Positions 1 through 61,936 of a stretch of DNA of 64,000 nucleotides are shown here, piece by piece. Made by a program: the position numbers and the translations under genes. This DNA is from Maylandia zebra (taxonomy: Eukaryota > Chordata > Actinopteri > Cichliformes > Cichlidae): positions 39,626,370 to 39,690,369 of the forward strand of contig NC_135168.1 of NCBI RefSeq assembly GCF_041146795.1. The letters run 5' to 3'. Each line of letters opens with the position of its first letter. The first letter of the stretch is position 1. The notes beneath the pieces are model-generated. The model saw only the letters and a list, made by a program, of their open reading frames with translations, had not been told where the DNA came from and did no database searches.

Positions 1-1964
1 GTGTCCTGCTCCTCTGAGGGAGGGGACAGTCCTCAGTACAGCTGGACTCTGGATGGACGCACACTGACAGATGCTGAGCTCCTTTCTATAAATAATGAGA
101 CTAACATCATCACTCTGAAACAGCACGTCTCAGGACGTCTTGTCTGCTCAGTCAGGAACAACGTCAGTAATGTCTTCAAAGAACAGAAGATATCTCCCTG
201 TGGTGAGTGAGAACACTCTGAATTTTTATTACCATTACCTGGACCCCAGTTGTCTGCGCCTTCTTTAACGCATATTTACTTAACGACATTCAGTAACCAC
301 AAAAGCACCAGTTATGTTCTAGATAAACATTTTCATATGATTCTTGTTGTCTGTCTCTCTAATTTATACACATATTTCACAATGGAATTTCATTTTAACT
401 GGAACATTGAAGCCACATTTTTAAAGGTGTTGTAAAGAACAGAAAGTGTTCTGTGTGTGTGTGTGTGTTTTAAAAAAAATACATTTTCAGTTACTAACAA
501 AGTAAGAAAAATTAAAAAAAAAAGTTAAATGGCAGTTACAATACCATCTATGATTTTATTGATTTATTGTGGCACCATATGTCTACCCAAACAGTGAAAT
601 ATTCAGAGGTCCATGCTACTCATGTGTGCAACAATAAAGGCATCTTCACAAAAACACAGACAAACAGTAGCTGCAATAACAACATTTCTGTTTCAGGTAA
701 ACATTTGTTAGTGCTGCCAGTCCATTCAAATAATTTTGCTTTTGTTTCCTTTTTTTGTGTCGTTGCAGGTGTGGAAACTTACTGTGATGGCAGACAGGAT
801 GGAGCTCAGTGTTATGGAGCTTTGGGAGGAAGTGTGGAGATAAAGCTGATGGACAGCACCGCAAAAATACCTCGATACCATTTGTTAAAGAATTCATTAA
901 AAATACTAGATGTGAGAAAGAAAAGGATTCTTTATAATATCATAGAACATAAATTTCTGCTTTTTCCCAGTAATGGAACACTTAGGCTCAATTATCTGAG
1001 CAGGACAGACAGCGGTAATTATAGCCTTAAAAGCTTTGATTCAGATGGAAAAGCATCAGATGAGCAGACTCTACAATTGTTTGTTCAAGGTAATGTTTTC
1101 CTTGTTGTGAAATGAAGCCATTAATAGATATGAATATAACTTTAATATTGTTGAAGTAATCCATATCTTTCCATACATGTATTTTACGGTTTATACATAT
1201 TTTTCCACTGAAGACTATAAAGAATGACTGATTTAATTCTGCAATGTCGATTTGAAATCTAAACTCATCTGTGTGTTTTTCTCAGCTCCTGTGTCCTCTG
1301 TCCTGCTGGTCTCTGAGTGTCTGTCCCAGGGAGAGAGGAGGGTGTCCTGCTCCTCTGAGGGAGGGGACAGTCCTCAGTACAGCTGGACTCTGGATGGACG
1401 CACACTGACAGATGCTGAGCTCCTTTCTGTAAATAATGAGACTAACATCATCACTCTGAGACAGCACATGTCAGGACATCTGGTCTGCTCAGTCAGGAAC
1501 AACGTCAGTAATGTTTTCATAGAACACAGGCTGTCTACCTGTGGTGAGTGAGAACCTTATGAATAAAAGTTATTAAGCACAAATTAAATTTTTATGGTTA
1601 TTATGTCTTGAACTGTTTGTTTGTTGGATCATACTATGCTTCATTTTTTTCTTTATTAACTGCAGCTCTGTCAGTGGGATACAGACATCAGGGTAGGTAC
1701 ATGAAAACAATGTACATTGAACCAACAGCAGACCCAGCTCTGCCTAACATGTGATTTTGGTGTCTCCTAACAGATAAGATGCTTATATGTGGTTTGCGAG
1801 CAGTTGTGGTCATTCTCTTGCTAATTGGGATTCCCATCTACTTTGCTTGGAAGAAAAAGAAACATGCCAAAGCTGAAGTCTCTGCTGTCCCACAAACAAG
1901 AGGAGATCCAGAGGATTCTCTTCTGATGGTTGAAATTAGTTCTGCAACTTACACCAACACCTAG
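1..1964 (+). CDS. CD2/SLAM-like Ig receptor, 5' end outside window, short-tail type (gene 1)
   Basis: Exons I place: C2 1-202 (start missing), V 769-1089, C2 1286-1543, hinge 1666-1692, TM plus tail 1774-1964 (stop 1962-1964). All internal exons are phase 1 with AG/GT borders, and their lengths (321, 258 and 27 nt) keep the frame. The V exon has the CDG...QCYGALGG start and DSGNYS in strand F but no F-strand Cys; the C2 exon has four Cys. The membrane segment contains an Arg (CGLRAVVVILLLIGI) and is followed by KKKK and a tail of about 30 residues with no ITIM. Role inferred: a leukocyte surface receptor that could pair with an ITAM adaptor through the Arg. The leading C2 exon implies at least two V-C2 pairs in the gene, or a neighbour that lacks its own TM exon. 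Confidence 0.8.
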
Positions 1965-2128
1965 TTTCACCTTTTATTTGCTGTTATTTATCTTTGGTTC
2001 ACAAGCATGAAAATAGCATTTAGAGAGAAATTCTTCTGCTCTTTTTATTCCCCACAAATTATGATGAGAAGCTCTGTGGTTTCTGGGTTTTACATTTTTT
2101 AAATACAAAATCTTTACAATTCTTAAAC

Positions 2129-2134
2129 AATAAA
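2129..2134 (+). promoter_or_regulatory. Polyadenylation signal of gene 1
   Basis: AATAAA lies about 165 bp after the gene 1 stop codon on the coding strand, a usual 3' UTR length. A T-rich tract follows within 40 bp. Confidence 0.6.
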
Positions 2135-4840: not shown

Positions 4841-4844
4841 TTTA

Positions 4845-7496: not shown

Positions 7497-10400
7497 TCAT
7501 CTTCTGTTGCTTGAAAACTTGATTTGGCCATACTCCACCTCCGCCTCTGCTCTTTGCTCAGCATCCTTCCTCTGACATTTCGTGATAATGACATGAGCAT
7601 AGGTTACTTCCTGGTCATCTTCTTCAGCTGCAAATTAGTAGGAAGAGGTGGCACAAACATAATGTTACAGTCAGTGTATTAGTACAGGAATGGTTTGACT
7701 TAAAGAAGAACTTTCACTCTCATGTCTGCTGCTGGAACAGTTGATTAGTTTTACCACAAAGGTTGAAGGCAGTGTGTGTGATTCTAACTGGTGCACTTTA
7801 AAACTAATTAAAATGTTTCATTGGTGAACTCACGGGTTGCCGTTTTTTGAGCTGTTTCCCCATGTTTTTAGTTGTTGTGTTAAAGCTAGCTGATTAGCCA
7901 TACCAACAAATTTGACTGGCATATGACAGAGGTATGATTAAACTCTTGGCAAGACAACTGGTGCGACATCTTGGCAAGACAGCAAAAAGGTTTATTAAAT
8001 TTTTTTAAAATAATTATATATGTTTAATTAATCAAAGTGGAGTGGGGAAATGGAAAGTTTTGTACCTCTTTGTTCTGTAGGTTTGGTTTTTTGCTTTATG
8101 ATGTGTTCACAGGCACCTGCTACACCCACAACTAACAAAATGAGCAGTGCTGAGAGAACACCACCGATCAGTGGTAAATAGGCTGTTTGTGGTGGTAAAA
8201 AGGACAGAATAAGACAAAAACAAGTCAGCAAGTCTGAGTTTTTATGAAGACAAACAAAGAAATAATGAGAAACTGGCATTAGTCAGTCTACTGTAGCAAA
8301 GTTATTTTCACTTACTAATGTACCATGGGTTATCACTGCTGACAGTTTGATTGAAGGGTTTGATCTTAGTGGGGTTTTTATTTGACACTACGGCGGTCTC
8401 CTTAGACGTAGCAGTTTGTTTGGGGACTGTTGTTGGTTTAATACACAGGGTGTTATTGGCTTCATACACCCACCCTGATATCTGTTTTCCATTGACTGAA
8501 GTGCAGTTAATGAAAATGAAGCCTGAGAGCAAAAACGTATAATTAATGAAAGACTGAGTGACCAAAATGATCATATTTGTGATTATCACAGTGTTCTCAC
8601 TCACCACAGGTAGATATCCTCTCCTCTTTGGAGACATCACTGACGTTGTTCCTGACTGAGCAGACCAGATGTCCTGAGACGTGCTGTTTCAGAGTGATGA
8701 TGTTACTCTCATTATTTCCAGAAAAGAGCTCAGCATCTGTCAGTGTGCGTCCATCCAGAGTCCAGCTGTACTGAGGACTGTCCCCTCCCTCAGAGGAACA
8801 GGACACCCTCATCTCTCCCTGGGACAGACATTCAGGGTCCAGCAGGACAGAGGACACAGGAGCTGAGAGAAACACACATAGATGAGTTTCTTTAGAGTCT
8901 CTAATAAAGAATAGGGAAAGCATAGAATACAGGGAAATGTCGTGAGATATATTGTATAGATTATTGTATAGATTACCACAACAATATTTTATTTACATCT
9001 ATTAATGGCTTAATTTCCCAACATTTACCTTCAATAAACAACTGTAAAATCCGCTCGTCTGATGATTTTCCATCCGAATCAAAGGTTTGAAGGCTATAAT
9101 TACCACTGTCTGTCCTGTTTAGTTTATTGATCCTAAATGTTCCATTACTTGGAAAATGAGCTCTCTCTCTTATGGTATTAGAAATAACCGTATTTTTTCT
9201 CACATCTAATATTTTTAATGAACTCTTTAATAATTGGTATCTATTAATTTCTGAAGTGTTGTCCATCAGCTGGATGTCCACAGTTCCTCCCAAAGCTCCA
9301 TAACACTGAGCTCCATCCCGTCTGCCATCACAGTAAGTTTCCACACCTGCAAAACAAAAATAAAGTTGTCATAGTTGTTAGTTTTGCTCAGTAGATGAAC
9401 AGATGTCCACATGCCTGATGCAGTAGCCTGAGTTCTAGCCAGAGGGCTTTTGCTGTGTGCCCTGCTTTCTTGTCTCCTCTTTACTGAACACTATTTAACA
9501 AATGTAAGCAATGTTTCAGAGAGGATATCAGAAGTGGTAACAAAAGGAGATCAAAGCACAAAGTAATGGTTAATAGACCTGTACACCAGAACTATAAGAC
9601 CAGGAAGACCAACCTGAGGAGGCTTACAACTCAGTGCTTCTGGATTTATGTGTGCTTGGCTTTATACAAGGCTAATATTGCACTAATGACATTTACTAAG
9701 AACTCAAGTCACCATCAAATGTGGAATATCCCACACTTGATGCACTGTCCATATCACAAAGATCAGAGTGGAGTGACCATCAGCCACTTCTTGTCCATCG
9801 ATGACATTATGCTGTATGACAGGAGTGACTGAAACACTGACTCACTGATCCACCTCACCAGGATCTACACTGAAAAAAATATGTTGTTGGATTTACTTAA
9901 TTCAATGGTGGACATTTGTTGCACACAGATGTTTTGCTTCGGCAGCAACTTAAACAATTGAGTTAAATTAACACAATTTATTCATGTTCAATAAACTTGT
10001 GCAATTTGTGTTGATAAAATGTGACTTAAACATGTTTTGATGAAGTAATTTGAGCTCTTGGAATATTTTAATCCTTCACAATTTTCTCACGTTATCCCAA
10101 CACGATTCAATAACTTTTACCCAATACTACTTGGTCACTTAAATACTACATGTTATCTTCAAATTACATTTTGCTATTATATTCTAGTATCAAATACACA
10201 ATTTTCAAATGGAGGCCTTATAACAGATTGTATTGTTCTCTTCCAAGATGGTTGCTGGCATCCACCAGTAACCTTTCAAAACAAAATGTCTAATTTCACT
10301 GCATTGACAGTAGGTAAAGAATTAAACTGACATTACTCCTCCACTGAATCTACATAAATCAACAGTTAAATAATGTCAGTTCTTCCGTGTTCTCTGGAAT

Positions 10401-13400: not shown

Positions 13401-14720
13401 CAAAAAATCAAGACATACCAAAAACGTAGAGTTGGCTGCTCGACTTGACTGAGATGGATGCCTTTTTTAAACCACGATCCAAAGCCCGCGAGATGAAATC
13501 ACGCGTGGTTTCATGAGATTTAACGTTGCTATCTTATTAACTTACTTCACCTGAACATGATATGAACAATTTAATACACCCTTTCTGCATATCATGTAGT
13601 TTTTACACTATATAGTTACATTTAACTTTAAAACATGAGGCAATTGTGTTAAATACATGCAAGATGCTTACATAAATCCAAGAGATGGCCAGTCCCTTTT
13701 TTTCAGTGTACAGTGAGGAGGCTAGGATGTCATTCTTTATAAATGTGGCAAAAAGGTTGTAAAGAGAGACTGATGGGGTGGAGTTGCCATAAGGACATAC
13801 AGGACACACAGAAGAAGTGCTTGGGTATCCAACAGGTTAACGAGAGCTACATGATAAAGACACAATAAAGTCAGACACAGTCAAATACCTCCAGAAAGTA
13901 ATAGAGGTGCTAAAAAATGTGAGCCATCAATATATATGTCTTCACGTCATCAGATACCAAACTGGAATAACAAACTGGCCACAAGAGGAGACATGAAAAC
14001 TCCTCACAATGCCACTCAACATCCTTCCTCTGATTTCTTCAATTTCCACTCAAAGGTCTGAGACTCTGTGAACAGATGTGGAAGCTGCTGTTGAAATAAA
14101 AAAATGGCTCCCTGAGGTGAGTTGCTCCAAAACAGCTGAAGACAGACAGTGATAAGGAACAGGAAGTGGGACCATCATGTATGACTGACCTGCAGATATA
14201 GCATCAACAGATAGAGGGAAGAAAAAGAACAGGGCCTAAGCACTAGAATTTAGAGGAAGGAGTCACATCTAACAGGGCTCAGAGACAGAGCAGCGTACAG
14301 TAACAGGGCTGGGACAGCGTACACTGACTTGCACAACCAACTACAAGAACATTTGTGCTGCATATGATCCCCAAATCCCGATAGGAGACCCCACTGAAGG
14401 TGGTTGAGAACAACAGTGCTAACTAAGGTCATGTGGAACTTTGAGTTCCACATAGACAGACAGCCAACCATTAACCACTCAGACATAACCACCGACCAGC
14501 AGCTGTGATACATGAAGCAATCCTAAAATCCAGATAAGAGACGGCAACATCAGAATGAAGGAGCATGACAAAACTAAGAAGTAACTTTTTTTCAGACCTA
14601 ATTCTGATTGTACTGAAATTAAGTATGAAATAAGTATTTTTGAAACCTTGCATAAAAAAAATTTGGTTGCTCACCATGAGCTACTCCGAACATCAGCAAC
14701 AGTCCAACTGCAGCTTCCAT
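7497..14720 (-). CDS. CD2/SLAM-like inhibitory receptor with two ITIMs (gene A)
   Basis: Exons in transcript order: leader 14720-14675, V 9346-9029, C2 8862-8605, stalk 8522-8316, TM 8182-8066, tail 7627-7497. All junctions are phase 1 and the sum, 1077 nt, gives 358 aa. The leader starts MEAAVGLLLMFG. The V domain lacks the canonical disulfide; C2 has four Cys. The stalk (about residues 208-276) carries N-glycosylation sites and two Cys. The TM, from IGGVLSALLILLVVGV, has no charge in its core. The tail carries VTYAHV (Tyr325) and VEYGQI (Tyr348), both exact ITIMs able in principle to recruit SHP-type phosphatases. Inference: inhibitory leukocyte receptor. No lesion seen in the coding exons. 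Intron 1 is about 5.3 kb and packed with transposon remains, so the leader link is by pattern only. Confidence 0.82.
9560..9865 (+). mobile_element. LINE reverse-transcriptase fragment in gene A intron 1
   Basis: A 267-nt open frame (9566-9832) ends with GVTISHFLSIDDIMLYDRSD, matching in pattern the SHLLYMDDIKLYA catalytic box of a common fish non-LTR element. Only the palm region remains and the usual Y/M before DD is changed. The fragment at 22161-22487 is probably from the C-terminal end of the same family. Confidence 0.6.
9868..13708. mobile_element. Candidate large DNA transposon bounded by CACTG termini
   Basis: The left end reads CACTGAAAAAAA at 9868; the right end is its exact reverse complement finishing at 13708. 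Both are flanked by TA. A 12-bp inverted repeat 3.84 kb apart could be chance, though CACTG ends suit a CACTA/EnSpm-like element. Inside, the minus strand near 11170-11330 reads DLDNVTFAVAMLFGP, resembling a short repetitive protein I associate with fish transposons. A hAT-like end (CAGGGGTGGGGCCTC) sits at 11808. No intact transposase is visible. Confidence 0.4.
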
Positions 14721-16156: not shown

Positions 16157-16205
16157 CATAAGAGACTCCTAATAGCATCACGAACAGTACAAACACAGCT
16201 TGCAT
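16157..16205 (-). other. Second (upstream) signal-peptide exon, intact copy
   Basis: The minus strand reads MQAVFVLFVMLLGVSYG, then a GTGAGC donor: 49 nt in phase 1, the same length, phase and style as the gene leaders. It lies 1.4 kb upstream of the gene A leader and could act as an alternative first exon for gene A. The equivalent exon in four other units is decayed (30127, 38568, 48274, 63897), so it may equally be the relic of an older gene. Confidence 0.55.
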
Positions 16206-18696: not shown

Positions 18697-20209
18697 CTAG
18701 GTGTTGGTGTAAGTTGCAGAACTCATTTCAATCATCAGAACAGAGTCCTCTGGATCTCCTCTTGTTTGCGGGACAGCAGAGACTTCAGCTTTTTCATTTT
18801 TCTTTTTCCTCCAAGCGAAGTAGATGTAAATACCAATTAACAAGAGAATGACCACAACTGCTCTCAAACCACATATAAGCAAGGAATTATCTGTTCAGAG
18901 ACACCAAAATCACATGTTAGGCAGAGCTGTGAGTTTTCACTTACTTCTCATGGTAAGAAAGAAGAAAGTGTGTGAAATGCACTTCACACACACACAGTTC
19001 TTTATAGCCAGATGACATGTTTATTTTGAGTTTTCGTTTGTTGTGACAGTCCACAGTCTGGACAGCTCCGGTCTCAGCTGTTGCCAGCTTCCCCTCCGCT
19101 CCTCTCCCATCTCACTAAAAAGGGGAAGGAAAACCGTCATCAGACCAAACGCCATCACTTGTGTTCTCACCTGCCACCTGCCAGCACCGCCCCATTGAGC
19201 TCACTGCACCACTCCTTCCCTGCAGCCCGAGCCCGGGACCACACCTCCGCCACAAAGTGATGTAAATGAATCCAATTTACTGGAGTTAGTTTTCACTTAC
19301 TATTGTGCCATGTGCCATCGCTGCAGGTAGTTTGATTAAAGGGTGTTATACTGTATTTTTGTGAGTTAAATCATAAAGATTTTCAAAACCATGTTAAATT
19401 TCTATCAAGTTCTTGAACTCATTCCTTACCTTACCTTGAATGAACAACTGTAAAGACTGCTTGCCTGTTTCTTTTCCATTTACCATCTAAATCAAAGGTT
19501 TGAAGGGTATATTTACCACTATCATTCCTGCTCAGGTTATTGATCCTAAATCTTCCATTACTGGGAATAAAAAGAGACCTACTTTGTATTATACTATAAA
19601 GAACCTTATTACACAGTCACTACAACCACAATTCACTCACAAAGTTACACTAACAATGAACGTCATTCATAACTAATTTATTAACTAACTAAAAAAAATA
19701 AGTCACACAAACTCTCCAGTTCAGTCTAAAACAAACACTACATGTTTGTTTGTTTTAAAAAAATGAAAACTACAGGAGTGGAATCATGACTGATGACACT
19801 GTTGGAGAAAACAACATTGTCACTATTTCTTAATTTGTATGTAGAGTTCAGTTAGTCAGTTGCTAAGCTTTTAAATGGGAAATACCATAATAACAAAACA
19901 TGATATCCATAAAACTTGAAAAAATTATATAAACTAAAAACTTCTTATTCATTCTAAACCAACAAGAATTACCTTGAATTAACAACTGTAAAGTCCATTT
20001 CCTTGATGATGTTCCACTTGAATCAAAAGTTTAAAGGCTATGATTACCGCTGTCATTCCTGTTCACTTTCATGATCTTAAATCTTCCATTGCATTGAGAA
20101 AGGAGAGATCTATGTGATGTGGAGTTAGAAATACCCCTTTCTCTCTCACATCCAGTATATTTAATGAATTCTTTAACAATTGGTATCTAGGTATTTCTGA
20201 GGAGCTCTA
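18697..20209 (-). pseudogene. Broken receptor unit with an intact short-tail TM exon
   Basis: Pieces in transcript order: V 3' part 20209-19973 (N-terminal third missing), V 3' part about 19614-19435, stalk end about 19345-19301, TM plus tail 18890-18697. No leader or C2 exon lies between the pieces, and 18930-19260 is unrelated GC-rich sequence. The TM exon is intact: correct AG acceptor, phase 1, 194 nt (the same length as in gene 3), CGLRAVVVILLLIGI with the membrane Arg, and a 30-residue tail without ITIM. It could serve as an alternative last exon for gene B upstream. Confidence 0.7.
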
Positions 20210-22951: not shown

Positions 22952-25900
22952 TCACCTGACTTTATGGACGTTAGCATACACACAATCAGTTCCTGCTGGT
23001 TCAGGCCTCCGAGGTCGCTTTGCAGACTTTACTTGGCCGTGCTCCACAGCAGCTTTTTTCTCAGCTTGGTTTGCCTGCCTTTTGACAAACTTGACATCAG
23101 CAAAGACTTCCTGGTCATCTTCTTCCTCTGCAAAGTAGCAAAAGGGATGGTTCAAATATAGTATTAAAATAAGTGAATGATTAAAGGAATACAAAGACAG
23201 TAGATAACATAAAATGAGTCACACAAAATATGACATGGGTTCTTTAGCGAGCTTTAGAGTTTATAGTTTGTGGATTTTGCTTTGTTTAGACAGAGCTGTT
23301 TCACAGGTTTTTGTGTTAATTGTAGCAGGATAGCAGTATCTGCATATTTAACTGATATATGACAGAGTTATCAATAAACTCTTGACAAGAAATCAAAAAT
23401 GTATTTAAAAAGCTTACTATTCCGTATATCCTAAAAAACAAAAAAGCAATCTGAGCAAAATAAGTGATGAAATAAAGTGTACCCTTTTTTGTAGGTTTGC
23501 TGTTTTGCTTTTTCCTCAAAGCACATATGACTACTACACCAACAACCAAGAAAATTACCAGCGCTGAGAGAACACTACCGATCAGTGGCAAATTTCCTGT
23601 TTCAAAAATAAAAGGCACAAACAGATAGCAGGTTGAATCAGAAAACATGTTGGTTTTTTATCAAGACAGAGAATGAGCAAAGGAGAAAATTACATCAATG
23701 GATCTGAAGTTACTTTTTACTTACTAATGTACCATGGCTCATCACTGATGGTAGTTCCATAATCCTTACCCACAGAAGTCTGTTTTGGTGGAGTACACAG
23801 GGTGTTATTAGCTTTATACACCCACCGTGATATCTGTGTCCCATTGACTGAAGTACAGTTAATGAAAATAAAGCCTATGAGCAATAAAACACATAATTCG
23901 TGCAAAGTTACTGTATTAATTAATGAATTAGTAATTATCATATATATATCAGATTATTTATATTCTCACTCACCACAGGTCGATATTCTCTCCTCTTTGG
24001 AGACATTACTGACATTATTACTGACTGAGCAGACCAGATGTCCTGACACGTGCTGTTTCAGAGTGATGATGTTAGTCTCATTATTTCCAGAAAGGAGCTC
24101 AGCATCTGTCAGTGTGCGTCCATCCAGAGTCCAGCTGTACTGAGGACTGTCCCCTCCCTCAGAGGAGCAGGACACCCTCATCTCTCCCTGGGACAGACAC
24201 TCAGAGAGCAGCACCACAGAGGACACAGGAGCTGAGAGAAACACACACACAGATCAGTTTTTTAAAATAGTATTTGGTCATTCTTTATAGTCTCTAATGA
24301 AAAACAGGGAACGCAAAAAACACATGTATCTGAAATTTTGTGAGATGTATTATATGGATTACCAAAAATCTATTAATGGCTTAATTTCCCAACATTTACC
24401 TTGAATGAACAACTGTAAAGTCCACCCGCCTGATGATCTTCCATCTGAGTCAAAGGTTTGAAGGGTATAATTACCACTGTCTGAGCTGCTCAGGTTATTG
24501 ATCCTAAATGTTCCTCTACTGGGAAAAAGATCCACTCTTATAGAATTAGAAGTAACCTTATTATTTCTTACATTTAATATTTTTAATGTATTTTTTAACA
24601 AATTGTATTTATTAATTTCTGAAGTGTTGTCCATCAGCTGGATTTTCACAGTTCCTCCCAAAGGTCCATAACACTGAGCTCCATCCCATCTGCCATCACA
24701 GTGAGTTTCCACACCTGCAAACAAAAAAGGATACACAGTTGGTTTGTTTGTTTTTAAGTTACAAATTTGAGTTTGGCAAAATCTGCAAATGTCTACCTAA
24801 ACCAAAAATGACGGTTTTGTGCCCACTGTCTGTCACAGATGAACATTATACAGGTCTGTGAATCACAGTTAAGGTTCAGCTAGCAGCACTATTTTCCCTG
24901 TGCTGATGAACAGTTACAAACTAAAACTAGAAAATTACAAATTCAAATTATACAACTAGAAAAAGTTGCACTTCCTGCGAAAATGTAGTGTGAATGCCGT
25001 GTAGTGGAATCTGAAAACAGCAGAAGAAGGAGAGCTATCTGTTGAAAACAGGTATAGAAGCTGAACTCTGCTTTATTTGAAAGACTACACTGAAGAGTGT
25101 CAAGAAAGCAGATTACATGTAAGCAGGGAAGATGTGCAGCATCTGTCCCATGTAGTACTCGAACCCTTGCCACCAGATCTCACAGCAGCTGCGCATCCTA
25201 CTGCGCCAAACCATTTCTTGTCTGAAACAAAGATATGATGAGAGGAAAAAAATGTGCACTGTGCAGAAGAAGCTAAATTCTGCTGAAAAGAGGTGAAAAT
25301 GCTGAATGTTCAGCAAAAAAGAGATAAGGAACCTGAAAATTGTGCTGAAAAGAGGTGAAAAGGCTGAAAACTGTGCTTATAAGAGCAGAAGAGGATGAAA
25401 ATTGTGCTAAAAAGAGGTGAAAAAGCTGAAAATTGTACTGAAAAGAGGTGAATCAGCAGACTTTCTGCTGAAAAGAGGAAAAGAAGCTGAAGTTTGTGCT
25501 AAAAACAGCTTAAGAAGCTGGAATTTGTGCTGAAAAGTAGTGAAAAACTGAAACTTTTGCTAAAAAGAGGTGAAAAAGCTGAAATTTGTGTGGAAAAAAG
25601 TTTAAACAGTTGAAGTGTTAACTGAAGAAAATGTTGCCATAAGCAGGATTCGAACCCTGGCCTCCTGGTCTGAGAACGGCTGCTCATCTCACCGAGCTAA
25701 AACATGGCTCAGCCCGGCAAGCAAAACTGGTGATCACACTGATAATGTGGTTCCTGTCAGCAAAATGGGCTGATTTCTTGACACTCTTCAGTATAGTCTT
25801 TCAAATAAAGCAGAGTTCAGCTTCTACACCTTTTTTCAACAGATGGCTCTCCTTCTTCTGCTGTTTTCAGATTCCACTACATGGCATTCACACTGCATTT

Positions 25901-36800: not shown

Positions 36801-38258
36801 CAGCCCAATTCTACTTTTTCTACATAATCCATCATACAAAATGTAACCAAATGGAAAAGTCTCTTTTTAAAACTTGTTTTGTTAGTTTTAATCTTTTAAC
36901 TTTATGCATCTAGCAAAAATTTAATTATATGCAACATTCTCTGACTGGAAGTTACTGCCCATCTCTGTACATTACAAACGTCACTGCTGTTTAGTTTCTC
37001 TCTTCATTTATGTCGGAAGTGATAGCAGAGCTGTACGTCTTAATTTGTTTACGAAATCTTTCAGTCAGAACATGGTATATCCTGTTTAGGTGGAAACTAG
37101 CGAGCTAACTCCCTGCTAACTTCTAACTCCATTAAATTTAATAAATTCTGTTTTCATGGATGCCTCGATTTTGAACTTAATTGTTACACCTGGTAAAGCA
37201 GCAATGCTGATCATTATATTAAAGATGAAAGCATTTAGAAGGTTTTTAACTCCCAGTGATGGCCCAGTGTTCATTTATCTTTAGGACCTGAACAGACTCC
37301 GTGAGGCTCCTGACTATGTTATCCATAATGCTCCGACAGCAGTGCGGCTTCGTAGCTTACCAAAGTCGTACTAAAAATCTTTTTGACAGATTTTTGAGCA
37401 CGGTTTATCACATAAAATTGGTTCGAGGTCAGTAAGCACAACCAGAATTCATACATGAGGCGCACCGGATTATAAAGCGCACTGCTGATTTTTGAGAAAA
37501 TGTAAGCATTCTAAATGTGCCTTATAGTGCAGAAAATAGAGTACTACTAAAGCAATTTGGTAAGTAAACAGTGTATAATATGTCACCTATGACAACTACA
37601 ATTACGAAATCATGGCAATAAAATTTTGAATAAACCAAGCTACTTTTTGTACCTTACGAAATTTTAATTTAAAGTTTTAACATTTAGTTGGAAAAGTAAA
37701 CATCCTTAGATGTGGGAAAAAGAAAATAGGTAAAAAGATTCCATTATGAGGTAATTCCATTTCAACCACAAAAACTACAAGAAGAAGAAGTTGAAGAAGA
37801 AGTTGGTTTTGTGCAGCAAGGATGAACAAAAACTGCCTAAATTCTAAAAATGAATGCACAAAGTAAAGAATTTCTCCATTTATCTGCAGCTATATTTTTT
37901 CCAGTTAAAAACTTTAAAAAATATATCACTCAACACTACTGCATCATACCGCTACTGTAACTGATGAACACATTAGTCATGTTGGAAATCTGTATTTGCC
38001 AACATGACTATAACTCAGCACTGCTTGTTTTTACCTTAAGTGCATACTGTAAATAAGCTGAACTTATAAACAAATAAAAGACAAGAGATCCTTTGGCTGT
38101 TTTCAAGTAGTCAAATGTACTAACACATGCCATGGCTTCAAAACACACTGTTGATATATAAGATTTTTACATTATAAAAGTGTTGCATCTCAAATGCTGA
38201 AAAACTCACCCTGAGCAACTCCCAGTAGAACAATCATCAATCCAAGCACAGCTTCCAT
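33861..38258 (-). CDS. CD2/SLAM-like receptor, short-tail type with membrane Arg (gene 3)
   Basis: Exons: leader 38258-38210, V 35512-35198, C2 34636-34379, stalk 34290-34165, TM plus tail 34054-33861 (TAG stop). All are phase 1; 942 nt gives 313 aa with no lesion. Leader MEAVLGLMIVLLGVAQG. V begins GVETYCDGRQDGAQC. C2 has the four-Cys pattern. The stalk is only 42 residues (gene A 69, gene B 50) with the INC...TLC pair kept. The membrane segment LLLCGLRAVMGILLLIGI contains an Arg and is followed by KKKK; the tail of about 38 residues lacks an ITIM. Such a receptor would need an adaptor such as an FcR-gamma or DAP12 homologue to signal (inference). Intron 1 (2.7 kb) holds MITE-like repeats. 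Confidence 0.82.
36635..36760. repeat. Dispersed repeat with alternating AGTAAT/ATTACT motifs
   Basis: Dense GTAATCAGTAGCTAATTACT-type motifs typical of a common fish MITE. A separate palindromic stretch with GCGCACCGGATTATAAAGCG lies at about 37460. Both are in gene 3 intron 1. Confidence 0.5.
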
Positions 38259-43433: not shown

Positions 43434-45432
43434 TCAGTCTGGCAAGTTCATTTTGAAAACTTGATTAACTCCAGCTCTGCTATTTTCTCCCTTTGCTTCA
43501 CCTGCCACAACACCAACATTAGCATAGACTTCTTGGCCATCTCCATTCTCTGCAGAGCAGCAAATAGAGTCAGTGAATGATTAAAGAATTTTTCATGTTC
43601 TATGAAACTGTTTGCTAATAGTCAAAAAATGTCACTGTATGGAAAAAGTTCGTTTTACCACAAAGATGCAAAATGATTTGCATTTTACATAGATAAATAA
43701 ATAAATAAAACATGACTTTTAACATTCTTTTGGGAGCTTTAAGCTTTACAAAGCTGGGCAAAATTGCTTTCAAACACTTTGTGTTAAAGGTAGTTGGTTA
43801 ACAATACTTGCATATTTAACTGACACATAACAGATATCAATAAACTCTTAGCAAGAATAAAAAAAAAACTATTTAAAAGTGCTCAATTATTCTGTTTATC
43901 TTCTTAAAAAATGCAAAAAAGAGCGACCTGAGTAATGGGAGAAAGAAAAAAAAGATGTTTGTTACCGTTTTGTTTTAGGCGTTTGTCGTTTTTCTTTTTT
44001 TCTGAGCAGATGATAACTGCACCCAGAGCCATGAAAATTACCAGAGCTGAGAGTCCACCACCAATCAATGACAAATTGCATGTTTCAAAGATAAAAGACA
44101 ACAAAAGATGAAAAAACTGATTTCATTGGATCTACTTAGTTTTCACTTACTAATCCATCATGATTCATCTCTGATGGCAGTTTCTTTTTCCTTACCCACA
44201 GAACTCTTTGCTGGTTCAGTACACACAGTGTTATTAGTTTTATGCACACACTCTGATATCTGTGTCCTGATGACTGAAGTGCAGTTAATGAAAATAAAGC
44301 CTATGAGCAAAGAAACCCACGTAATTTGCTAAAGATATACAAAGTGAGCATATCAATTGCTGAGTGATTATCAGATATTATTTACAAAGACCTCACTCAC
44401 CAGAGGTAGATATCCTCTCTTCTTTGAAGACATCACTGACGTTATTACTGACTGAGCAGACCAGATGTCCTGAGACGTGCTGTTTCAGAGTGATGATGTT
44501 AGTCTCATTATTTCCAGAAAGGAGTTCAGCATCTGTCAGTGTGCGTCCATCCAGAGTCCAGCTGTACTGAGGACTGTCCCCTCCCTCAGAGGAGCAGGAC
44601 GCCCTCATCTCTCCCTGGGACAGACACTCAGAGACCAGCAGGACAGAGGACACAGGAGCTGAGAGAAACACACAGATCAATTCTGATACCGTGACAGGAT
44701 TTTGGTCTCCAATGAATAACTGGGAAAGCAAAAAAATATATCTGAAAATTGTCCACGGGAACTTGTGGATTTTAGTTTGTAGTCCCTGCCAGAAGGACTG
44801 TGGTTACATTTTCTGACGATTGTCAGTTTAAGTCCATTAATGTAAAGCTTTTATTTGTGAACAGATACGTATTATACAGGTCTGTGACTGAAACATAGTT
44901 TGGGGTAAGTTAGCAGCTCTAGTTTCCTTGTGCAGATATTCATCAAGATGAAAATTTACAAAACCTAGCTGGAAAATTGCAATTTTCCAAACGACAAAAC
45001 AAATGTCTGAATTGTATTTAGCTGCTGTAGCGTTTAGACTCTGCAGCTGTGCATGTTGCCTTACCACACCATCATCAAATGTTTTAAGTAGCCTGTACTT
45101 TTCTACAAGAAAAAAAGTAAAAATGTCTGGTATGAAATAGAACAGTTGTTTAATGAGGTAATTTGTCATAGTTGTATTTACTTATATGTGTTTACTGCAT
45201 ATTCAATGATCTCAGAATGGCACATTAATGTTTAAAGAAAAGCAGGCCAAGCAAGCTGGAAAAATTTGTCTTTTGTTGTTGTTGTTCTTTTTGTTCCAAA
45301 CTTATTTTATGGACTGTACTAGATTCCGTGGCTGCAAAACATCTCATTGTTATAAGATTAGGTATTAAGCAAGTTTTGTAGCTCACCATGAGAAACTCCG
45401 AACAACATCAACAGTCCAGCTACAGCTTCCAT
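43434..45432 (-). pseudogene. CD2/SLAM-like receptor pseudogene lacking its V exon (gene 4)
   Basis: Pieces: leader 45432-45387 (MEAVAGLLMLFGVSHG), C2 44658-44401, stalk 44300-44151, TM about 44080-43966, tail 43549-43434. No V exon lies between leader and C2. Further lesions: the last C2 Cys is Ser (STSG); the stalk has an in-frame TGA at 44158-44160 where gene B has a PW pair; the TM acceptor CAG is CAT. The tail keeps EVYANV, then stops, while a further FVYANI-coding segment survives beyond the stop. The C2 is otherwise as well preserved as in the live genes. A leader-C2-stalk secreted product is formally possible but unlikely. Confidence 0.75.
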
Positions 45433-49769: not shown

Positions 49770-52700
49770 CTATCTCCCCTCTTTGACAACTTGCTTTCCT
49801 TGCTGTTGTGTGAGACTGACATCAGTAAACATTATTACCTGGTCATCTTCTTCCTCGGCAGAGAAGCAAGAAGAATAAAGTAACATAAGTGAGTCATTAA
49901 AATAATCGTTTGAGGTCTAAACAGAAGTTTACCATCATTTCTTCAGCAGACTGAAAATTGTGAAATGGTTTCACTGATTCTGACCAAAATGCACACAAAA
50001 CATGACTTTTAATTTTGCTCAGTTCTGGCTTTTTTGATGTATCAACAAACTTTTGGCAAAGAATAAAAATTGTTTATTTAAAAAACAGCAAACAGAAAAA
50101 TTGTTATATGTAATTATTAAAAGAACAAAGTTTTTTTTACCTTCCTGTTTTGTAGGTTTGTTTTTTTGTTTCTTTCTCCGAGAACAGATGACTGCTACAC
50201 CCACAACTAAGAAAATTATCAGTGCTAAGAGAACACCACCCATCAGTGTTAAAATTCCTGCTCCTAAAATAAATGAAATTTAAAAAAAAAAACAAGTCAA
50301 CATGTGTTTTTATGGCAAAACACAAGGAGAAAATAAAGACAATTACATCAATAAATTCATTGCATTAAAGTTTTAATTTATTAATGTGCCATCAGTGATT
50401 ATTATTGTCCAACTGATTAATATGCAATCAATGAAAATGAAGCTTATAGCCCATAAATAAATGATTTATGAAAGGTGTACAAATTGACCATTTTGGTCGC
50501 TAACTTCCCAAGGGCAAGTCAGAGCAGAGACATATTCACACTACAGTAGCAGTACAAATATCTAAAAAAGACCAGTTTCTGTCTTTTGTCAAGCTCTCGA
50601 GACTACTACCATGATGACTGGGAACCTACACTGCCTGAATTGCTGATTCAGTATTAGATATTATTTACAAAGACCTCACTCACCACAGGTAGATATCCTC
50701 TCTTCTTTGGAGACATTACTGACGTTGTTCCTGACTGAGCAGACCAGATGTCCTGAGACGTGCTGTTTCAAAGTGATGATGTTAGTCTCATTATTTCCAG
50801 AAAGGAGCTCAGCATCTGTCAGTGTGCGTCCATTTAGAGTCCAGCTGTACTGAGGACTGTCCCCTCCCTCAGAGGAGCAGGACACCCTCCTCTCTCCCTG
50901 GGACAGACACTCAGAGACCAGCAGGACAGAGGACACAGGAGCTGAGAGAAACACACACAGATGAGTTTAGATTTTAAATCAGAATCTCTGTCATTTTCTA
51001 TAGTCTCTAAAAAGAAACAAGGAAAGAACAAAATACATGTATTTGATATTTTGTGATATATTATTTAGTTTGCCAACAGAACAGAAAAAATACCTTGAAT
51101 AAACAACTGTAAAATACGCTCGTCTGATCTTCTTCCATCTGAATCAAAGGCTTGAAGAGTATAATTATCACTGTCACTCCTGCTCAAGTTATTGATCCTA
51201 AATGTCCCATTACTGAGGAAAAGATACCTATGTTCTGTGGTTTTAAAACTGATCATATTCTTTTTCACATTAAATATGTTTAATGAATCCTTCAACAATT
51301 GGTATTCAAGTATTTCCGAAATGCTGCCCAGATGGATGTCCACAGTTCCTCCCAAAGCTCCATAGCACTTAGTTTCATCCTGGCTGCCATCACAGTAAGT
51401 TCCCATACCTGCCAATGCAAAGTAAACGGAAGAAAAATTGACACAATTTTGAGTGTTTAGTACCTACAAGAACTACAGTTTTTCTTTTCATTTAGCATTT
51501 GCACATGTTTAACAAAAACAGAAATTGCGGTTTTCTGTTTACTGTTTGCTAAAGTGTACACTATGCAATCAAGCATTTACGAGAGGACCCAAGTGCAGAG
51601 GCTTGGCGATAGTAACAATAACAAACAAGAAATCATGAACAATTAACTTTAACTTTACAATAGCTTAAAAAATATACAATAAAGAATAAGTTACAATAAC
51701 TTGCCTTCAACTTTTCCATTGTCTTTAACATCCAGGGTGAAATGAATGTTTTTCTCTTGAACTCCATCTGAATTAAAGACCTCAATGCTGTATTGACCTG
51801 AATCATTCCTCCTCAGGTTTGTGATCTTGAGTGTCCCGTTCTTGATTATAAATGTTAGTCTGTTGTTAAATTCCTTGTCTGTTGTTATTTTTTCTTTCTT
51901 TATATTGAACACAGTTATGTTCCCCTTGGGAAGCACCTTCAAACACTTCAGTTCACTGCCACTAGCATCAGTCATCACTTGGATATACACAGTTCCTTTA
52001 AGAAGAGGAGAGCATGGGCATGTGTTCGTCCTGAGGTCACAAGTAGTCTCATCAATTGGAACGAGAGCTGGAAAAACACATTTAATAGAACATGAGCTGA
52101 AATTATTCAGACAACAAATGGAAATGATTGCCTTCATTACTGGCAAATTTTCTACTATAATACTTCTTCTTCACTGCCTAAAGTACTCATTTAGTGCAGC
52201 TAACACTAATCAGTGACAACGTTTAAAATTTCAGTGTCCCTTTAAACTTTAAAGTTAAAGATTAAATAATGAATATGGATCCCAGCCCATGTGTGGTGAA
52301 AAGAACTGGAAATGCCCATAGATAGACAAATTCTAAATCAAGAAATATCCCATTTGTTGTCTTCAAGAATTTGGAAAAATTAAGCAACATGAAACATTTA
52401 TATCTATCTGTGTAGTTTTTTTTGTTGTTGTTTTGTTTTCATCTTCTACCCTTTGTTGCACAGGGGTTGTGTACTGTGTTTTTCTGTTTTACTCCAACAA
52501 GATGGCTATATTTCTGATTAACTTTATAATAATTTCAAAAATATACAATAAAGAATAAGTTATATAACTTGCCTTTAACATCCAGCGTGAAATGAATGTT
52601 TTTCTCTTGGACTCCATTTGAATTAAAGACCTCAATGCTGTATTGACCTGAATCATTCCTCCTCAGGTTTGTGATCTTGAGTGTCCCGTTCTTGATTATA

Positions 52701-53060
52701 AACTGTAGTCTGTTGTTCAATTCCTTGTCTGTTGTTATTTTTTCTTTCTTTATATTGAACACAGTTATGTTCACCATGGGAAGCACCTTCAAACACTTCA
52801 TTTCACGGCCACTAGCATCAGTCATCACTTGGATATACACAGTTCCTTTAAGAAGAGGAGAGCATGGGCATGTGTTCGTCCTGAGGTCACATGTAGTCTC
52901 ATCAACTGAAACGTGAGCTGGGAAAGATGCATTCACATGAACATGAGCTGAAATTATTCACACTACAAATACTAATACTTGGCTTCTTTATGAAGATGAT
53001 CTTACCATGAATTCCCCCTGCCACAAGCACAATGATAAGAAACTGCTCCATACTCTTCAT
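49770..53060 (-). CDS. CD2/SLAM-like gene with CD48-like tandem V domains, partly damaged (gene 5)
   Basis: Exons: leader 53060-53006 (MKSMEQFLIIVLVAGGIHG), V'1 52917-52573, V'2 52067-51705, V 51408-51094, C2 50941-50684, TM 50263-50141, tail about 49857-49770. Phases all fit. V'1 and V'2 share most residues (DETTCDLRTNTCPCSPLLKG) and differ from the usual V; both end in a GC donor. The stalk exon is reduced to a relic at about 50380-50440 whose donor GT is AT. The tail acceptor CAG is CCG, so reading on from the TM exon stops at 50019. The tail motif is VIMFTDV, without Tyr. It may be one chimeric four-Ig-domain gene, or a two-domain CD48-like gene next to a leaderless receptor. The ectodomain is intact; the tail is broken. 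Confidence 0.6.
51703..51704 (-). other. GC splice donor of exon V'2
   Basis: The gene strand reads GAAG then GCAAGT. The rest of the donor matches consensus, as required for functional GC-AG introns. Confidence 0.55.
52571..52572 (-). other. GC splice donor of exon V'1
   Basis: The gene strand reads AAAG then GCAAGT. The same GC is present in both duplicated exons, so it predates the duplication or was copied with it. Confidence 0.55.
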
Positions 53061-55343: not shown

Positions 55344-56888
55344 CAGGGAGTGCAGAATTATTAGGCAAATGAGTATTTTGTCCACATCATCCTCTTCATG
55401 CATGTTGTCTTACTCCAAGCTGTATAGGCTCGAAAGCCTACTACCAATTAAGCATATTAGGTGATGTGCATCTCTGTAATGAGAAGGGGTGTGGTCTAAT
55501 GACATCAACACCCTATATCAGGTGTGCATAATTATTAGGCAACGTCCTTTCCTTTGGCAAAATGGGTCAAAAGAAGGACTTGACAGGCTCAGAAAAATCA
55601 AAAATAGTGTGATATCTTGCAGAGGGATGCAGTAGTCTCAAAATTGCAAAGCTTCTGAAGCGTGATCATCGAACAATCAAGCGTTTCATTCAAAATAGTC
55701 AACAGGGTGGCAAGAAGCGTGTGGAAAAACCAAGGCGCAAAATAACTGCCCATGAACTGAGAAAAGTCAAGCGTGCAGCTGCCAAGATGCCACTTGCCAC
55801 CAGTTTGGCCATATTTCAGCGCTGCAACATCACTGGAGTGCCCAAAAGCACAAGGTGTGCAATACTCAGAGACATGGCCAAGGTAAGAAAGGCTGAAAGA
55901 CGACCACCACTGAACAAGACACACAAGCTGAAACGTCAAGACTGGGCCAAGAAATATCTCAAGACTGATTTTTCTAAGGTTTTATGGACTGATGAAATGA
56001 GAGTGAGTCTTGATGGGCCAAATGGATTGGTAAAGGGCAGAGAGCTCCAGTCCGACTCAGACGCCAGCAAGGTGGAGGTGGAGCACTGGTTTGGGCTGGT
56101 ATCATCAAAGATGAGCTTGTGGGGCCTTTTCGGGTTGAGGATGGAGTCAAGCTCAACTCCCAGTCCTACTGCCAGTTTCTGGAAGACACCTTCTTCAAGC
56201 AGTGGTACAGGAAGAAGTCTGCATCCTTCAAGAAAAACATGATTTTCATGCAGGACAATGCTCCATCACACGCATCCAAGTACTCCACAGCGTGGCTGGC
56301 AAGAAAGGGTATAAAAGAAGAAAAACTAATGACATGGCCACCTTGTTCACCTGATCTGAACCCCATTGAGAACCTGTGGTCCATCATCAAATGTGAGATT
56401 TACAAGGAGGGAAAACAGTACACCTCTCTGAACAGTGTCTGGGAGGCTGTGGATGCTGCTGCACGCAATGTTGATGGTGAACAGATCAAAACACTGACAG
56501 AATCCATGGATGGCAGGCTTTTGAGTGTCCTTGCAAAGAAAGGTGGCTATATTGGTTGCTGATTTGTTTTATTTGTTTTTGAATGTCAGAAATGTATATT
56601 TGTGAATGTGGAGATGTTATATTGGTGTCACTGGTAAAAATAAATAATTGAAATGGGTATATATTTGTTTTTTGTTAAGTTGCCTAATAATTATGCACAG
56701 TAATAGTCACCTGCACACACAGATATCCCCCTAAAATAGCTAAAACTAAAAACAAACGAAAAACTACTTCCAAAAACATTCAGCTTTGATATTAACGAGT
56801 TTTTTGGGTTCATTGAGAACATGGTTGTTGTTCAATAATAAAATCATTCCTCAAAAATACAACTTGCCTAATAATTCTGCACTCCCTG
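55344..56888 (+). mobile_element. Tc1/mariner element with DD37E-type spacing, full length but inactivated
   Basis: Perfect outer termini CAGGGAGTGCAGAATTATTA at both ends (25 bp or more), TA duplications at 55342-55343 and 56889-56890, 1545 bp. A second inverted pair, GTGCATAATTATTAGGCAAC and its inverse, lies about 180 bp inside each end, an IR/DR-like layout. Confidence 0.92.
55562..56562 (+). pseudogene. Tc1-like transposase, stop plus frameshift
   Basis: Frame opens MGQKKDLTGSEKSKIV at 55562 and meets TGA at 55610-55612. It then continues open through the helix-turn-helix region to WTDE (first Asp 55991). A frameshift near 56100-56118 moves the rest to another frame: MQDNAPSHASK (second Asp 56254), SPDLNPIENLW (Glu), ending KKGGYIGC at 56562. 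I count 37 residues between the second Asp and the Glu, not the 34 of classical Tc1. The two lesions preclude activity of this copy; the otherwise good frame suggests fairly recent insertion. Confidence 0.88.
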
Positions 56889-56894
56889 TATATA

Positions 56895-59217: not shown

Positions 59218-61054
59218 TCACTCAACACAGGTAGATATCTCCTGTTCTTTGGAGACACTATTGACATTGTTCTTGACTGAGCAGACCAGATGTCCTGAGA
59301 TGTAATGTTTCAAAGTGATGATGTTAGTCTCATTGTTTCCAGGAAGGAGCTCAGCATCTGTCAGTGTGCGTCCATCCAGAGTCCAGCTGTACTGAGGACT
59401 GTCCCCTCCCTCAGAGGAGCAGGACACCCTCATCTGTCCCTGGGACAGACACTGAGAGACCAGCAGGACAGAGGACACAGGAGCTGAGAGAAACACACAC
59501 ACAGATCAGTTTAGATTTAAAAACTAGAATTGTGAAAATTCTTTACAGTCTCAAATGAAGAACAGGGAAAGCATAAAATACATGCATCTGAACATTTTTT
59601 ATATTTATTGTATAGATCAGCAAAACATTGTTAAATTTATATCTATTAATAGCTTTATTGAGAAGAAAAGGAATTACCTTGAATAAGCAACTGTAAAGTC
59701 TGCTCGCCTGATGATCTACCCTCTGAATCAAAGGTTATAAGGCTATAATTACCACTGTCTGTCCTGCTTAGATCACTGATTCTAAATGTTCCATTACTGG
59801 GTAAGATTAGAGATTTGTGTGCTATGGTATTATAAATAGCCTTATTCCCTCTCACATCTAGTATCTTTAATGAATCCTTTAACAAGTAGTATCTAGGTAT
59901 TTCAGATGTGCTGTTCACTAGCTGGATGTCCACGGTTCCTCCCAAAGCTCCATAACACTGAGCTCCATCCTGTCTGCCATCACAGTAAGTTTCCACACCT
60001 GCAAATAAAAAATTAGACAAAAAGCAAAACTGTCAAACTTTTGAGTGTTAAGTTACTACCAGAAAGACTGCAGTAGCATATGCAAATGTTTACAATGAAC
60101 AGAAATTTGTAAGCTTCATGATTATTTATGATTATTTTCATATGGTTCCCACAGGTGGGCACAAATTAATGACTGAATTCCATCAGCAGAAATAGTGGTT
60201 TTGTGGCTACTGTCATTTTGTTTTAGTAGTAGTTTGTTGTTTACTCAGGCCTGCTGGCAATCAAAAACAGAATATGTATCTAACTGTTATGCAAAACCTC
60301 AATTTTTTTGCTGTTCTTAGGGTCTAAAAAACTGACTTTCGGAAGCTGTTCTCATGTGGCAGTTATTCATTGAAAATGAATGCAGGAAGTGAAAATGGAC
60401 GAAATTTTAACCCACAAAGAAAAGGTTTGAGTACTCCTGAAACAGGGGATAGTTGTGCAAAAATGCTGCAAATCTTATCAAATGTATGTAAAGTAGCTGC
60501 ATCACTTCCCAACAGGGAAAATGTTACCTTGAATAAACAAATGTAGAGTCCAAACATCTGATGTCCTGCCATCTGAATCAAAGGTTTCAAGGGTATATTT
60601 ACCAATGTCAGTCCTGCTCAGGCCATTGATCCTAAATGTCCCATTGCTGGGAAAAATGAGATATCTATGTGCAATGGTATTAGAAATAACCTTATCCCCT
60701 CTCACATCTAGTATTTTTAATGAATCCTTTAACAACTGGTATCTAGGTATTTCTGAGGTGCTGTCCATCAGCTGGATGTTCACAGTTCCTCCCAAAGCTC
60801 CATAACACTGAGCTCCATCCTGTCTGCCATCACAGTAAGTTTCCACACCTGTAAAGGAAAACAAAAAAGTAAACAATTTATTCTTTTACTTATTATTTAA
60901 CAAGTTCACCTCTCATAGCTGTATTTTTCAGCTCCATATTAGTTAAATAGTTAAAAAAAAATTAAATATAAAGTAAGATAAAAATGTATTTGCTATTGTT
61001 TTGTTCAAATTCATTTTGATAGTCTCTAAAAAAGAACAGAGAAAGCAGAAAATG

Positions 61055-61107
<53 letters not shown>

Positions 61108-61936
61108 TATAAAGATTACCAAAAAATCTTATATTTATATAAAGTAGCAGCTTTATTAACCAAAAAAAGATTACCTTGAGTAAACAAATATAGAGTCCGC
61201 TCGCCTGATTTTCTTCCATCTGAATCAAAGGTTAAAAGGGTATATTTACCAATGTCATTCCTACTCAGGTCATTGATCCTAAATGTTCCATTACTAGGAA
61301 AAATGAGAGACCTATGCTCTATGGCATTAGACATAACTGTATTATTTCTCCCTGCTAGTATTTTTAATGAATCCTTTAACAACTGGTATCTAGGTATTTC
61401 AGAGGTGCTATTGATCAACTGGATGTCCACAGTTCCTCCCAAAGTTACATAACACTGAGCTCCATCCTGTCTGCCATCACAATGAGTGATCACACCTGCA
61501 AAAAAAAGTGAACAAATGAACAAAGTCAAAATCAAACCGAGATGATAAAATCAGTGTCTGAATTTAATTTAGTCAAAATGTAAACCCCGAAGGACTCTGA
61601 AAATAAGGTTACATGTTATTTAATGAGTTTATATGTCATAGCTATATTTACGCATTTTCACATTAAAATGATCTCAGAATGTGTCGTTAATCTTTAAGGA
61701 AATATAAGTAAAGGAAGTAAAAATCATTTAAAGTGTTAAAATAAAACTCATAAACTGCAGTTCAACAAATCTTTTGGTGAATTCAGCTTAATTTTATTGA
61801 TGGTGCCAGATCACGTGGCAGCAAAACCTCTTTTTTTATTATAAAATTAAGCATTAATGAAGAAGAACAAAAAGTTTAGTAGCTCACCATAAGAGACACC
61901 GAGTAACATAAACAACAGTCCAATGACAGCTTCCAT
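59218..61936 (-). CDS. CD2/SLAM-like gene with three tandem V domains and no membrane exon (gene 6)
   Basis: Exons: leader 61936-61888 (MEAVIGLLFMLLGVSYG), V1 61495-61175, V2 60848-60528, V3 59998-59678, C2 59483 onward. The three V exons are each 321 nt, phase 1, with good AG/GT borders. At the C2 end the donor GTGAGT is TTGAGT, so the frame runs on for CVE and a TGA at 59218-59220; 1278 nt gives 425 aa. V2 and V3 keep GVETYCDGRQDGAQC; V1 starts GVITHCDG. No TM, tail or GPI-like hydrophobic end is seen. Either a secreted decoy with three ligand-binding domains or an early pseudogene. Splicing variants that skip V exons would all stay in frame. Confidence 0.72.
61056..61105. repeat. (TA)n microsatellite between V1 and V2 of gene 6
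   Basis: About 25 TA units within the intron. Confidence 0.9.

Follow-up and report, generated by a model that had tools for sequence, protein, structure and literature searches.

Can one type of immunoglobulin (Ig) ectodomain, repeated along a fish contig, serve receptors of opposite signalling type? The question is raised by a 64-kb stretch of Maylandia zebra DNA (NC_135168.1:39626370-39690369, hereafter the window), in which V- and C2-type Ig exons are followed by two kinds of ends: uncharged transmembrane (TM) exons with tails carrying immunoreceptor tyrosine-based inhibitory motifs (ITIMs), and TM exons with an embedded arginine and a short tail. A first-pass annotation of the window had read it as a paired inhibitory/activating receptor cluster on one CD2/SLAM-like ectodomain. 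We consider it probable that tandem type I immune receptors are here split into an ITIM and a basic-TM signalling class, and that the classes are mainly separate genes. The dual design on a single ectodomain was upheld by the separate ITIM and basic-TM ends, by a basic residue kept in seven of seven terminal exons, and by a V exon recently equalised between one gene of each class (gene 3 and L2, see below); the family assignment stood only in part.

V, C2, stalk, TM and tail exons were mapped over the window and 100 kb on each side (264 kb), and genome searches were run over the 962-Mb assembly, their match counts being lower bounds. One V query gave at least 41 matches (E ≤ 0.001), all of them on NC_135168.1 between 39.571 and 39.906 Mb; the window is a slice of a larger tandem array on one contig. 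The exon borders inspected were all of phase 1, so many in-frame exon combinations are possible.

The arginine-type terminal exons of the window, belonging to gene 1, gene 3 and a relic (Table 1), are homologous, as had been claimed: each has GLRAV inside a hydrophobic stretch, and their tails contain neither an ITIM nor an immunoreceptor tyrosine-based switch motif (ITSM). A genome search (E ≤ 0.01, ten candidates scored) brought the set to at least seven basic-TM exons, the relic exon at 18.7 kb included, all on NC_135168.1 at 39.628-39.857 Mb. A basic residue stands in the same column in all seven, four times as Arg (codons CGA once, AGA three times) and three times as Lys (always AAA), at a mean synonymous divergence (dS) of 0.51 between the exons. 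The annotation had proposed to place the arginine in the bilayer; on an estimate from biological-hydrophobicity parameters, the basic residue lies inside the predicted helix, being residue 5-7 of the best 23-24-residue helix in six exons and residue 2 of 22 in one, at about 39.857 Mb; this last exon is longer by three residues, and a placement at residue 7 is just 0.14 kcal/mol worse for it. On this estimate the annotation's refuting case of an Arg outside the membrane did not arise. The stretch from the basic residue to the next Lys/Arg consists of seventeen uncharged residues in six exons and of twenty in one; this spacing is about 16 in FcR-gamma partners such as Fc-alpha-RI and about 12 in DAP12 partners such as KIR2DS. 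We rejected the idea that the Arg ends are hydrophobic frames arisen by chance, since they recur with intact splice sites and have related tails. The seven basic-TM tails have no tyrosine common to all and no tyrosine pair. As a separate observation, all seven keep an acidic-xS(V/L)LM stretch, which resembles an acidic dileucine sorting signal.

For the other class, 12 tails were read in the 264 kb, including that of a broken gene at -45.5 kb (window numbering); this set excludes a remnant at 43.5 kb, which has QEVYANV but lacks an exact ITIM, and two tails lying beyond the 264 kb, at 39.809 Mb and 39.850 Mb, the latter with VMYADV and VEYGQV. Two ITIMs, of the forms VTYAxV/L and VEYGQV/I, stand at the same two places in seven of the 12 tails, while two tails have one ITIM and three have none. 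Gene A bears out the original description of two exact ITIMs (VTYAHV and VEYGQI) and an uncharged TM (25 residues without charge). Since chance alone yields many ITIM hexamers (the six frames of the window contain 300 in 120,431 residues), the weight of the motifs lies in their recurrence at the same two places. ITSMs were found in none of the 12 tails, in agreement with the claim that the design is atypical of SLAM receptors. A genome search with an ITIM tail gave at least 11 matches, again all on NC_135168.1. A third motif, CxYxxV, occurs in nine of the 12 tails (in one case with Tyr for Cys) and is retained in two genes whose ITIM tyrosines have been replaced, namely gene B (VFADV and VEHGQV, with CVYANV kept) and a gene at 106 kb (IFADI and LEFGKV). 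On the V tree, gene A has gene B as its sister (support 97/87); an ITIM receptor therefore has a tyrosine-poor sister, and it might be speculated that such members act as silent competitors. To the right of the window, the TM exon of a further locus of the ITIM lineage (68048-67938, window numbering) has gained an Arg (LLLMVRVLSAL), and its tail has one ITIM.

These two sets of ends suggest a mechanism familiar from other paired receptors. In the ITIM members, VTYAxV/L and VEYGQV/I would, after phosphorylation, serve as docking sites for SH2 phosphatases, and the cell would be held back. The basic-TM members, which have a short tail and, about a quarter of the way along the TM counted from its outer end, an Arg or Lys, would pair with an adaptor of the FcR-gamma/CD3-zeta family, which has an acidic TM and an immunoreceptor tyrosine-based activation motif (ITAM), and would activate the cell. 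Phosphatase recruitment, adaptor pairing, a shared ligand and opposing output are what we infer. The genome has TM matches of the FcR-gamma/zeta type: the profile of this TM (PF11628) gave at least five above the cut-off, each read over the TM only, though the same search gave no match in any of its 14 control genomes. The ITAM profile (PF02189) had no genome match, but the controls were likewise without a match. In catfish, co-precipitation with LITR 2.6b, whose TM contains a Lys and whose tail is short, is reported for FcR-gamma, FcR-gamma-L and CD3-zeta-L but not for DAP12 (PMC4810170). Among the FcR-like receptors of Xenopus, an NxxR motif at the N-terminal end of the TM marks the FcR-gamma class, and uncharged TMs make up the other (PMC2413239).

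Do both classes indeed share one ectodomain? Divergence and trees were computed from 19 V and 19 C2 exons of the 264 kb that are open over their whole length; broken or partial V exons (at -44.6, -15.1, 18-22, 40.7 and 77 kb), partial C2 exons (-45, -41 and 100 kb) and all exons of a second V subfamily (V2) were left aside. As had been asserted, the V and C2 exons of the two classes are of the same family: V protein identity averages 0.686 between ITIM and Arg members (24 pairs, highest 0.924) and 0.679 among ITIM members (15 pairs). Mean dS is 0.271 for V and 0.112 for C2, the V value being larger in 114 of 120 comparable pairs. That the C2 exons are so much more alike than the V exons points to an exon-limited homogenisation.

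One pair departs from this pattern. L2, an ITIM gene on the same strand as the Arg gene 3 and 71 kb from it (V exon NC_135168.1:39590425-39590739, outside the window), has with gene 3 the lowest V dS of all 171 pairs (0.047) and the highest C2 dS (0.306, rank 171 of 171); the synonymous changes number 3 in 65 sites in V and 15 in 60 in C2 (Fisher p = 0.0016). Their V exons are sisters (support 100/99) and are identical over alignment columns 88-305, i.e. 212 bases in a row plus a shared six-base gap. This run comprises 159 variable columns, a length reached in none of 1000 column shuffles over all pairs, while the next longest V run (54) is not significant (p = 0.30 over all pairs) and no C2 pair has a significant run in column shuffles. 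The DNA match consists of the V exon with about 16 and 9 bases outside it. These alignments are most simply read as the result of a gene conversion, or of the copying of an exon, that was confined to the V exon and linked an inhibitory gene with a putative activating one. The identical part corresponds to residues 30-101; going by V domains of the CD2-like kind, most of the surface facing the ligand would lie there. The conversion tract, which was out of reach of the first-pass annotation, strengthens the pairing idea.

Several observations weigh against two opposed classes kept in register. A significant conversion tract was found in only one of 171 V pairs. Gene 3 and L2 have the same orientation, unlike the converted CEACAM partners of Xenopus, which are in opposite orientation (PMC5112662). 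Otherwise, the placing of the classes on the V tree does not differ from that obtained by shuffling the labels (of 500 shuffles, 355 were as low for ITIM, 134 for Arg and 500 for tyrosine-poor members; 10 of 16 inner branches are weak), a distribution that would fit repeated exchange of ends and is silent on function. The ratios of nonsynonymous to synonymous divergence (0.67 in V and 0.65 in C2) would also fit relaxed constraint. Among the ends themselves, at least two of the matches to the ITIM-tail query, those in gene B and in the 106-kb gene, no longer have the tyrosines. The basic-TM exons form two subfamilies, one with Arg and one with Lys, so they do not represent seven independent events; moreover, the flanking G, L and A are also invariant (17 of 66 columns are), hence conservation does not single out the charge. 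Adaptor binding of LITR 2.6b survives neutralisation of its TM charge (PMC4810170). Finally, several members of the array (at 44 kb, at 59-62 kb and gene B) look damaged.

Part of this would be expected if the match between L2 and gene 3 were the product of neutral concerted evolution in a rearranging, decaying array, rather than of selection for matched pairs. The C2 exons are more alike than the V exons across classes, several members are broken, and there is a single converted pair, because of which selection and chance are inseparable. On the other hand, it is the V exon that the tract occupies, in two genes of different class (one ITIM, one Arg) whose C2 exons are the most diverged pair, and both V exons have stayed open. 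We regard this neutral account as somewhat unlikely.

To which family does the ectodomain belong? CD2/SLAM receptors have an N-terminal V domain without the canonical (B-F) disulfide and a C2 domain with four Cys. The array agrees with both traits: the V exons share only two Cys, at columns 6 and 15 (19 of 19), and lack the B-F disulfide; in C2, Cys columns 12, 22 and 68 are occupied in 19 of 19 exons and column 86 in 18, the last Cys having been lost from the 44-kb copy. The N domains of CEACAMs also lack the disulfide, their C2 domains have two Cys, and their activating tails are of ITAM type; here, C2 has four Cys and the basic-TM tails have no tyrosine pair.

The profile search proposed by the first-pass annotation gave a divided answer. 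Against PDB, the V profile matched human CD2 at 6.9e-7, eighth in the list and level with CEACAM1, whereas the C2 profile had CEA as its best and CEACAM5 as its third match, with no CD2 chain among 14 matches. A two-domain profile built from 12 genes had CEA as its best match (2.5e-15) and reached human CD2 over both domains (1hnf, residues 14-183) at 3.3e-6, eleventh in the list. The profile lists also contain titin, DSCAM, contactins and other Ig proteins. One V2 exon tested passed the cut-off of the 2B4 Pfam profile (Receptor_2B4, 23.8 versus 21 bits), and the best match of a V2 exon was CEACAM1 (1.1e-7). Receptor_2B4 was matched by two of ten V members at E ≤ 1, and SLAM (PF06214) by one of ten at 0.086; a search of NCBIfam gave no match. 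Structure models of single exons were poor (mean predicted local distance difference test, pLDDT, 56.6 for V and 40.2 for C2); the fold search with the V model gave no match at E ≤ 0.001, and the CD2 and 2B4 chains in its list were not used.

On these sequence traits, kinship with CD2/SLAM is likely, and we file the family as CD2/SLAM-like, not as a SLAM receptor. The lack of ITSMs, the different neighbouring genes, and the C2, V2 and two-domain profiles, which favour CEACAM/CEA, speak against this kinship. The original assignment thus stands as regards the four-Cys C2 and the V domain without disulfide; the profiles fall on CD2 and CEACAM alike. That the family is CEACAM-like instead seems unlikely to us. 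Besides the profiles, the absence of the disulfide in CEACAM N domains would fit it, and so would the ITIM/ITAM pairs of Xenopus CEACAMs with the same conversion of V exons (PMC5112662). It is opposed by the V match to human CD2, by the V2 exon above the 2B4 cut-off, by the four Cys of C2, and by activating ends that are basic TMs and not ITAM tails.

The basic-TM members could also be plain adhesion or decoy receptors with a CD48/CD58-like function, in which a partnerless Arg or Lys snorkels to the membrane surface. The short tail, without a tyrosine kept in all seven, would fit such a role; so would the position of the basic residue, which falls within the outermost third of the helix and, in one exon, right at the helix edge, and the equal invariance of the flanking G, L and A. 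Nevertheless, the basic residue is kept in seven of seven exons despite the Arg/Lys exchange and the change of Arg codon, and with Leu in its place the calculated insertion energy is 0.9-1.6 kcal/mol lower (on the estimate used above). As insertion is costly, the residue is kept at a price, and we find the adhesion or decoy role improbable compared with an adaptor-coupled one. Lastly, it is very improbable that the Arg exons are alternative 3' ends of ITIM genes reached by splicing: joining is possible at the phase 1 borders and gene B is followed downstream by the relic exon at 18.7 kb, but gene 1, gene 3 and a gene at 135 kb have V and C2 exons of their own, and in none of the three was a TM or tail exon of the ITIM type detected.

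Returning to ITIM and basic-TM receptors as separate signalling genes, we tentatively propose a bolder scenario, in which a fish CD2/SLAM-like family gave up the ITSM/SAP switch for a KIR-like system. ITIM genes would oppose Arg/Lys genes coupled to FcR-gamma, V exons would be copied between the classes so that an off/on pair reads the same target, and a third class, with the ITIM Tyr changed to Phe or His, would act as a silent competitor. The array suggests that a CD2/SLAM-like ectodomain of the adhesion type was turned into a paired off/on system, beyond those of the KIR, FcR and Siglec types. L2 and gene 3, as a named pair with nearly identical V exons, make the idea of a shared ligand with opposite signals directly testable in a fish family.

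Systems of this kind are already known; it is the ectodomain, together with the mixture of ITIM and basic-TM ends without ITSM, that makes this array a variant. In comparison with the CD2/SLAM family, the array shares the V and C2 traits and differs in lacking ITSMs in all 12 tails and in having exact ITIMs, basic-TM ends and PDGFR-type kinase/CDX neighbours. The Xenopus expansion of the CD2/SLAM family has reportedly diversified its signalling, to judge by the title of an article by Guselnikov et al. 2011 (Immunogenetics). NITR and CD300/SIRP receptors have the same paired design of ITIM and basic-TM members; their V domains contain the canonical disulfide, unlike those of the array, and set these families apart by description.

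In Xenopus and mammalian CEACAM pairs, similarity between ITIM and activating members is confined to the V (N domain) exon and is ascribed to gene conversion, as in gene 3 and L2; their activating members have ITAM or ITAM-like tails, whereas the array has a basic TM and a short tail (PMC5112662). Siglec-11 and Siglec-16, an inhibitory/activating pair whose ligand-binding exon is kept alike by gene conversion, resemble gene 3 and L2 in the same way, but belong to another Ig family, and their ligand binding was tested (PMC5701461). Xenopus XFL has two TM classes, basic and uncharged, like the array; its TM1 motif is NxxR and that of the array GLRA/GLKA, at a similar place (PMC2413239). Association with FcR-gamma is described for both XFL and catfish LITR, which have other Ig domain types than the array (PMC2413239 and PMC4810170). 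Among the literature matches listed, in a search that had most subscription journals outside it, no description of such a fish family was found.

Table 1. Receptor exons and members in and beside the window (position 1 is the first base of the window; negative positions lie to its left).
Feature	Position	Strand	Remarks
Gene 1, signal-peptide exon	-1305	+	left of window
Gene 1, first V exon	-543..-223	+	left of window
Gene 1, C2 exon, 3' part in window	1..201	+	exon span -56..201
Gene 1, second V exon	769..1089	+	
Gene 1, second C2 exon	1286..1543	+	
Gene 1, possible 27-nt mini-exon	1666..1692	+	from degraded stalk exon; splice inferred
Gene 1, terminal exon	1774..1964	+	TM with Arg (ICGLRAVVVILLLIGIPIYFAW) and short tail
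Gene A, tail exon	7497..7627	-	ITIMs VTYAHV and VEYGQI
Gene A, TM exon	8067..8183	-	25 consecutive residues without charge
Gene A, stalk exon	8314..8523	-	GFIFINC...
Gene A, C2 exon	8606..8863	-	four Cys
Gene A, V exon	9027..9347	-	two Cys near N-terminus, none at canonical disulfide places
Gene A, likely signal-peptide exon	14673..14720	-	region aligns with gene B counterpart
Gene A, second signal-peptide candidate	16155-16205		
Relic, Arg-type terminal exon	18697..18890	-	intact
Relic, V remnants	19464..20206	-	broken (stops, missing parts); pieces 20206-19971, 19610-19464
Gene B, overall	22952..24715	-	V 24715-24398, C2 24232-23975
Gene B, stalk, TM and tail exons	23875-23723, 23591-23484, 23131-22952	-	signal-peptide candidate 26328
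Gene 3, terminal exon	33861..34054	-	TM with Arg (LLLCGLRAVMGILLLIGIFIYFAW) and short tail
Gene 3, stalk exon	34165..34291	-	
Gene 3, C2 exon	34380..34637	-	
Gene 3, V exon	35196..35513	-	DNA 95% identical to V exon of ITIM gene L2
Gene 3, signal-peptide exon (candidate)	38208..38258	-	
44-kb member	43970..45432	-	signal peptide 45432, C2 44659-44405 (last Cys lost), stalk, uncharged TM
51-kb member	49770..52906	-	V2 exons 52906-52574 and 52056-51724; V 51409-51092
51-kb member, C2, TM and tail	50942-50685 (C2), 50252-50142 (TM)	-	tail truncated, without Tyr motif
59-62 kb member	59227..61936	-	signal peptide 61936-61886, V 61496, V 60849, V 59999, C2 59484-59227

The members differ in their state of preservation. 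Gene 1 is probably a four-Ig receptor (signal peptide-V-C2-V-C2-TM with Arg) that starts left of the window, since signal-peptide, V and C2 exons precede it there and the mapping showed no TM exon separating these from its other Ig exons; a complete gene with two Ig domains was rejected for gene 1. Skipping its mini-exon likewise preserves the frame. The exons of gene A are open and have AG/GT borders. The terminal exon at 18697-18890 is intact and belongs to a wrecked gene, as its V pieces carry stops or lack the first part and no C2 was detected before it; by phase, splicing into it from gene B, which lies upstream, would be possible. The 44-kb member, in which no V exon was detected, is probably broken. 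The 59-62 kb member (V-V-V-C2) has an altered C2 donor, no TM exon was found for it, and it is either broken or unusually built.

The V2 exons, about one third identical to V, are positioned upstream of V exons; two lie in the window (52906-51724, minus strand) and five more in the right flank. Their position suggests genes of the form V2-V-C2.

Mammalian SLAM and CD2/CD58 loci have other neighbours than this array, which, over the 100 kb read on each side, adjoins a PDGFR-CDX pair on its left and continues past the right edge. The left flank contains a kinase exon with PDGFR-beta as best match (6.1e-20) and PDGFR-alpha near it (6.4e-19), accompanied by Ig-type exons read by eye, and a homeobox exon matching CDX-2 best and CDX-1 next; a putative N-terminal piece of CDX in this flank had no Pfam match.

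By eye, open reading frames at 55613-56562 (plus strand, two frames), inside the array, resemble a Tc1/mariner transposase, those at 62435-63705 (minus strand) the reverse transcriptase of a long interspersed nuclear element (LINE), and one at 46391-46795 (plus strand) a BED/hAT-derived protein.

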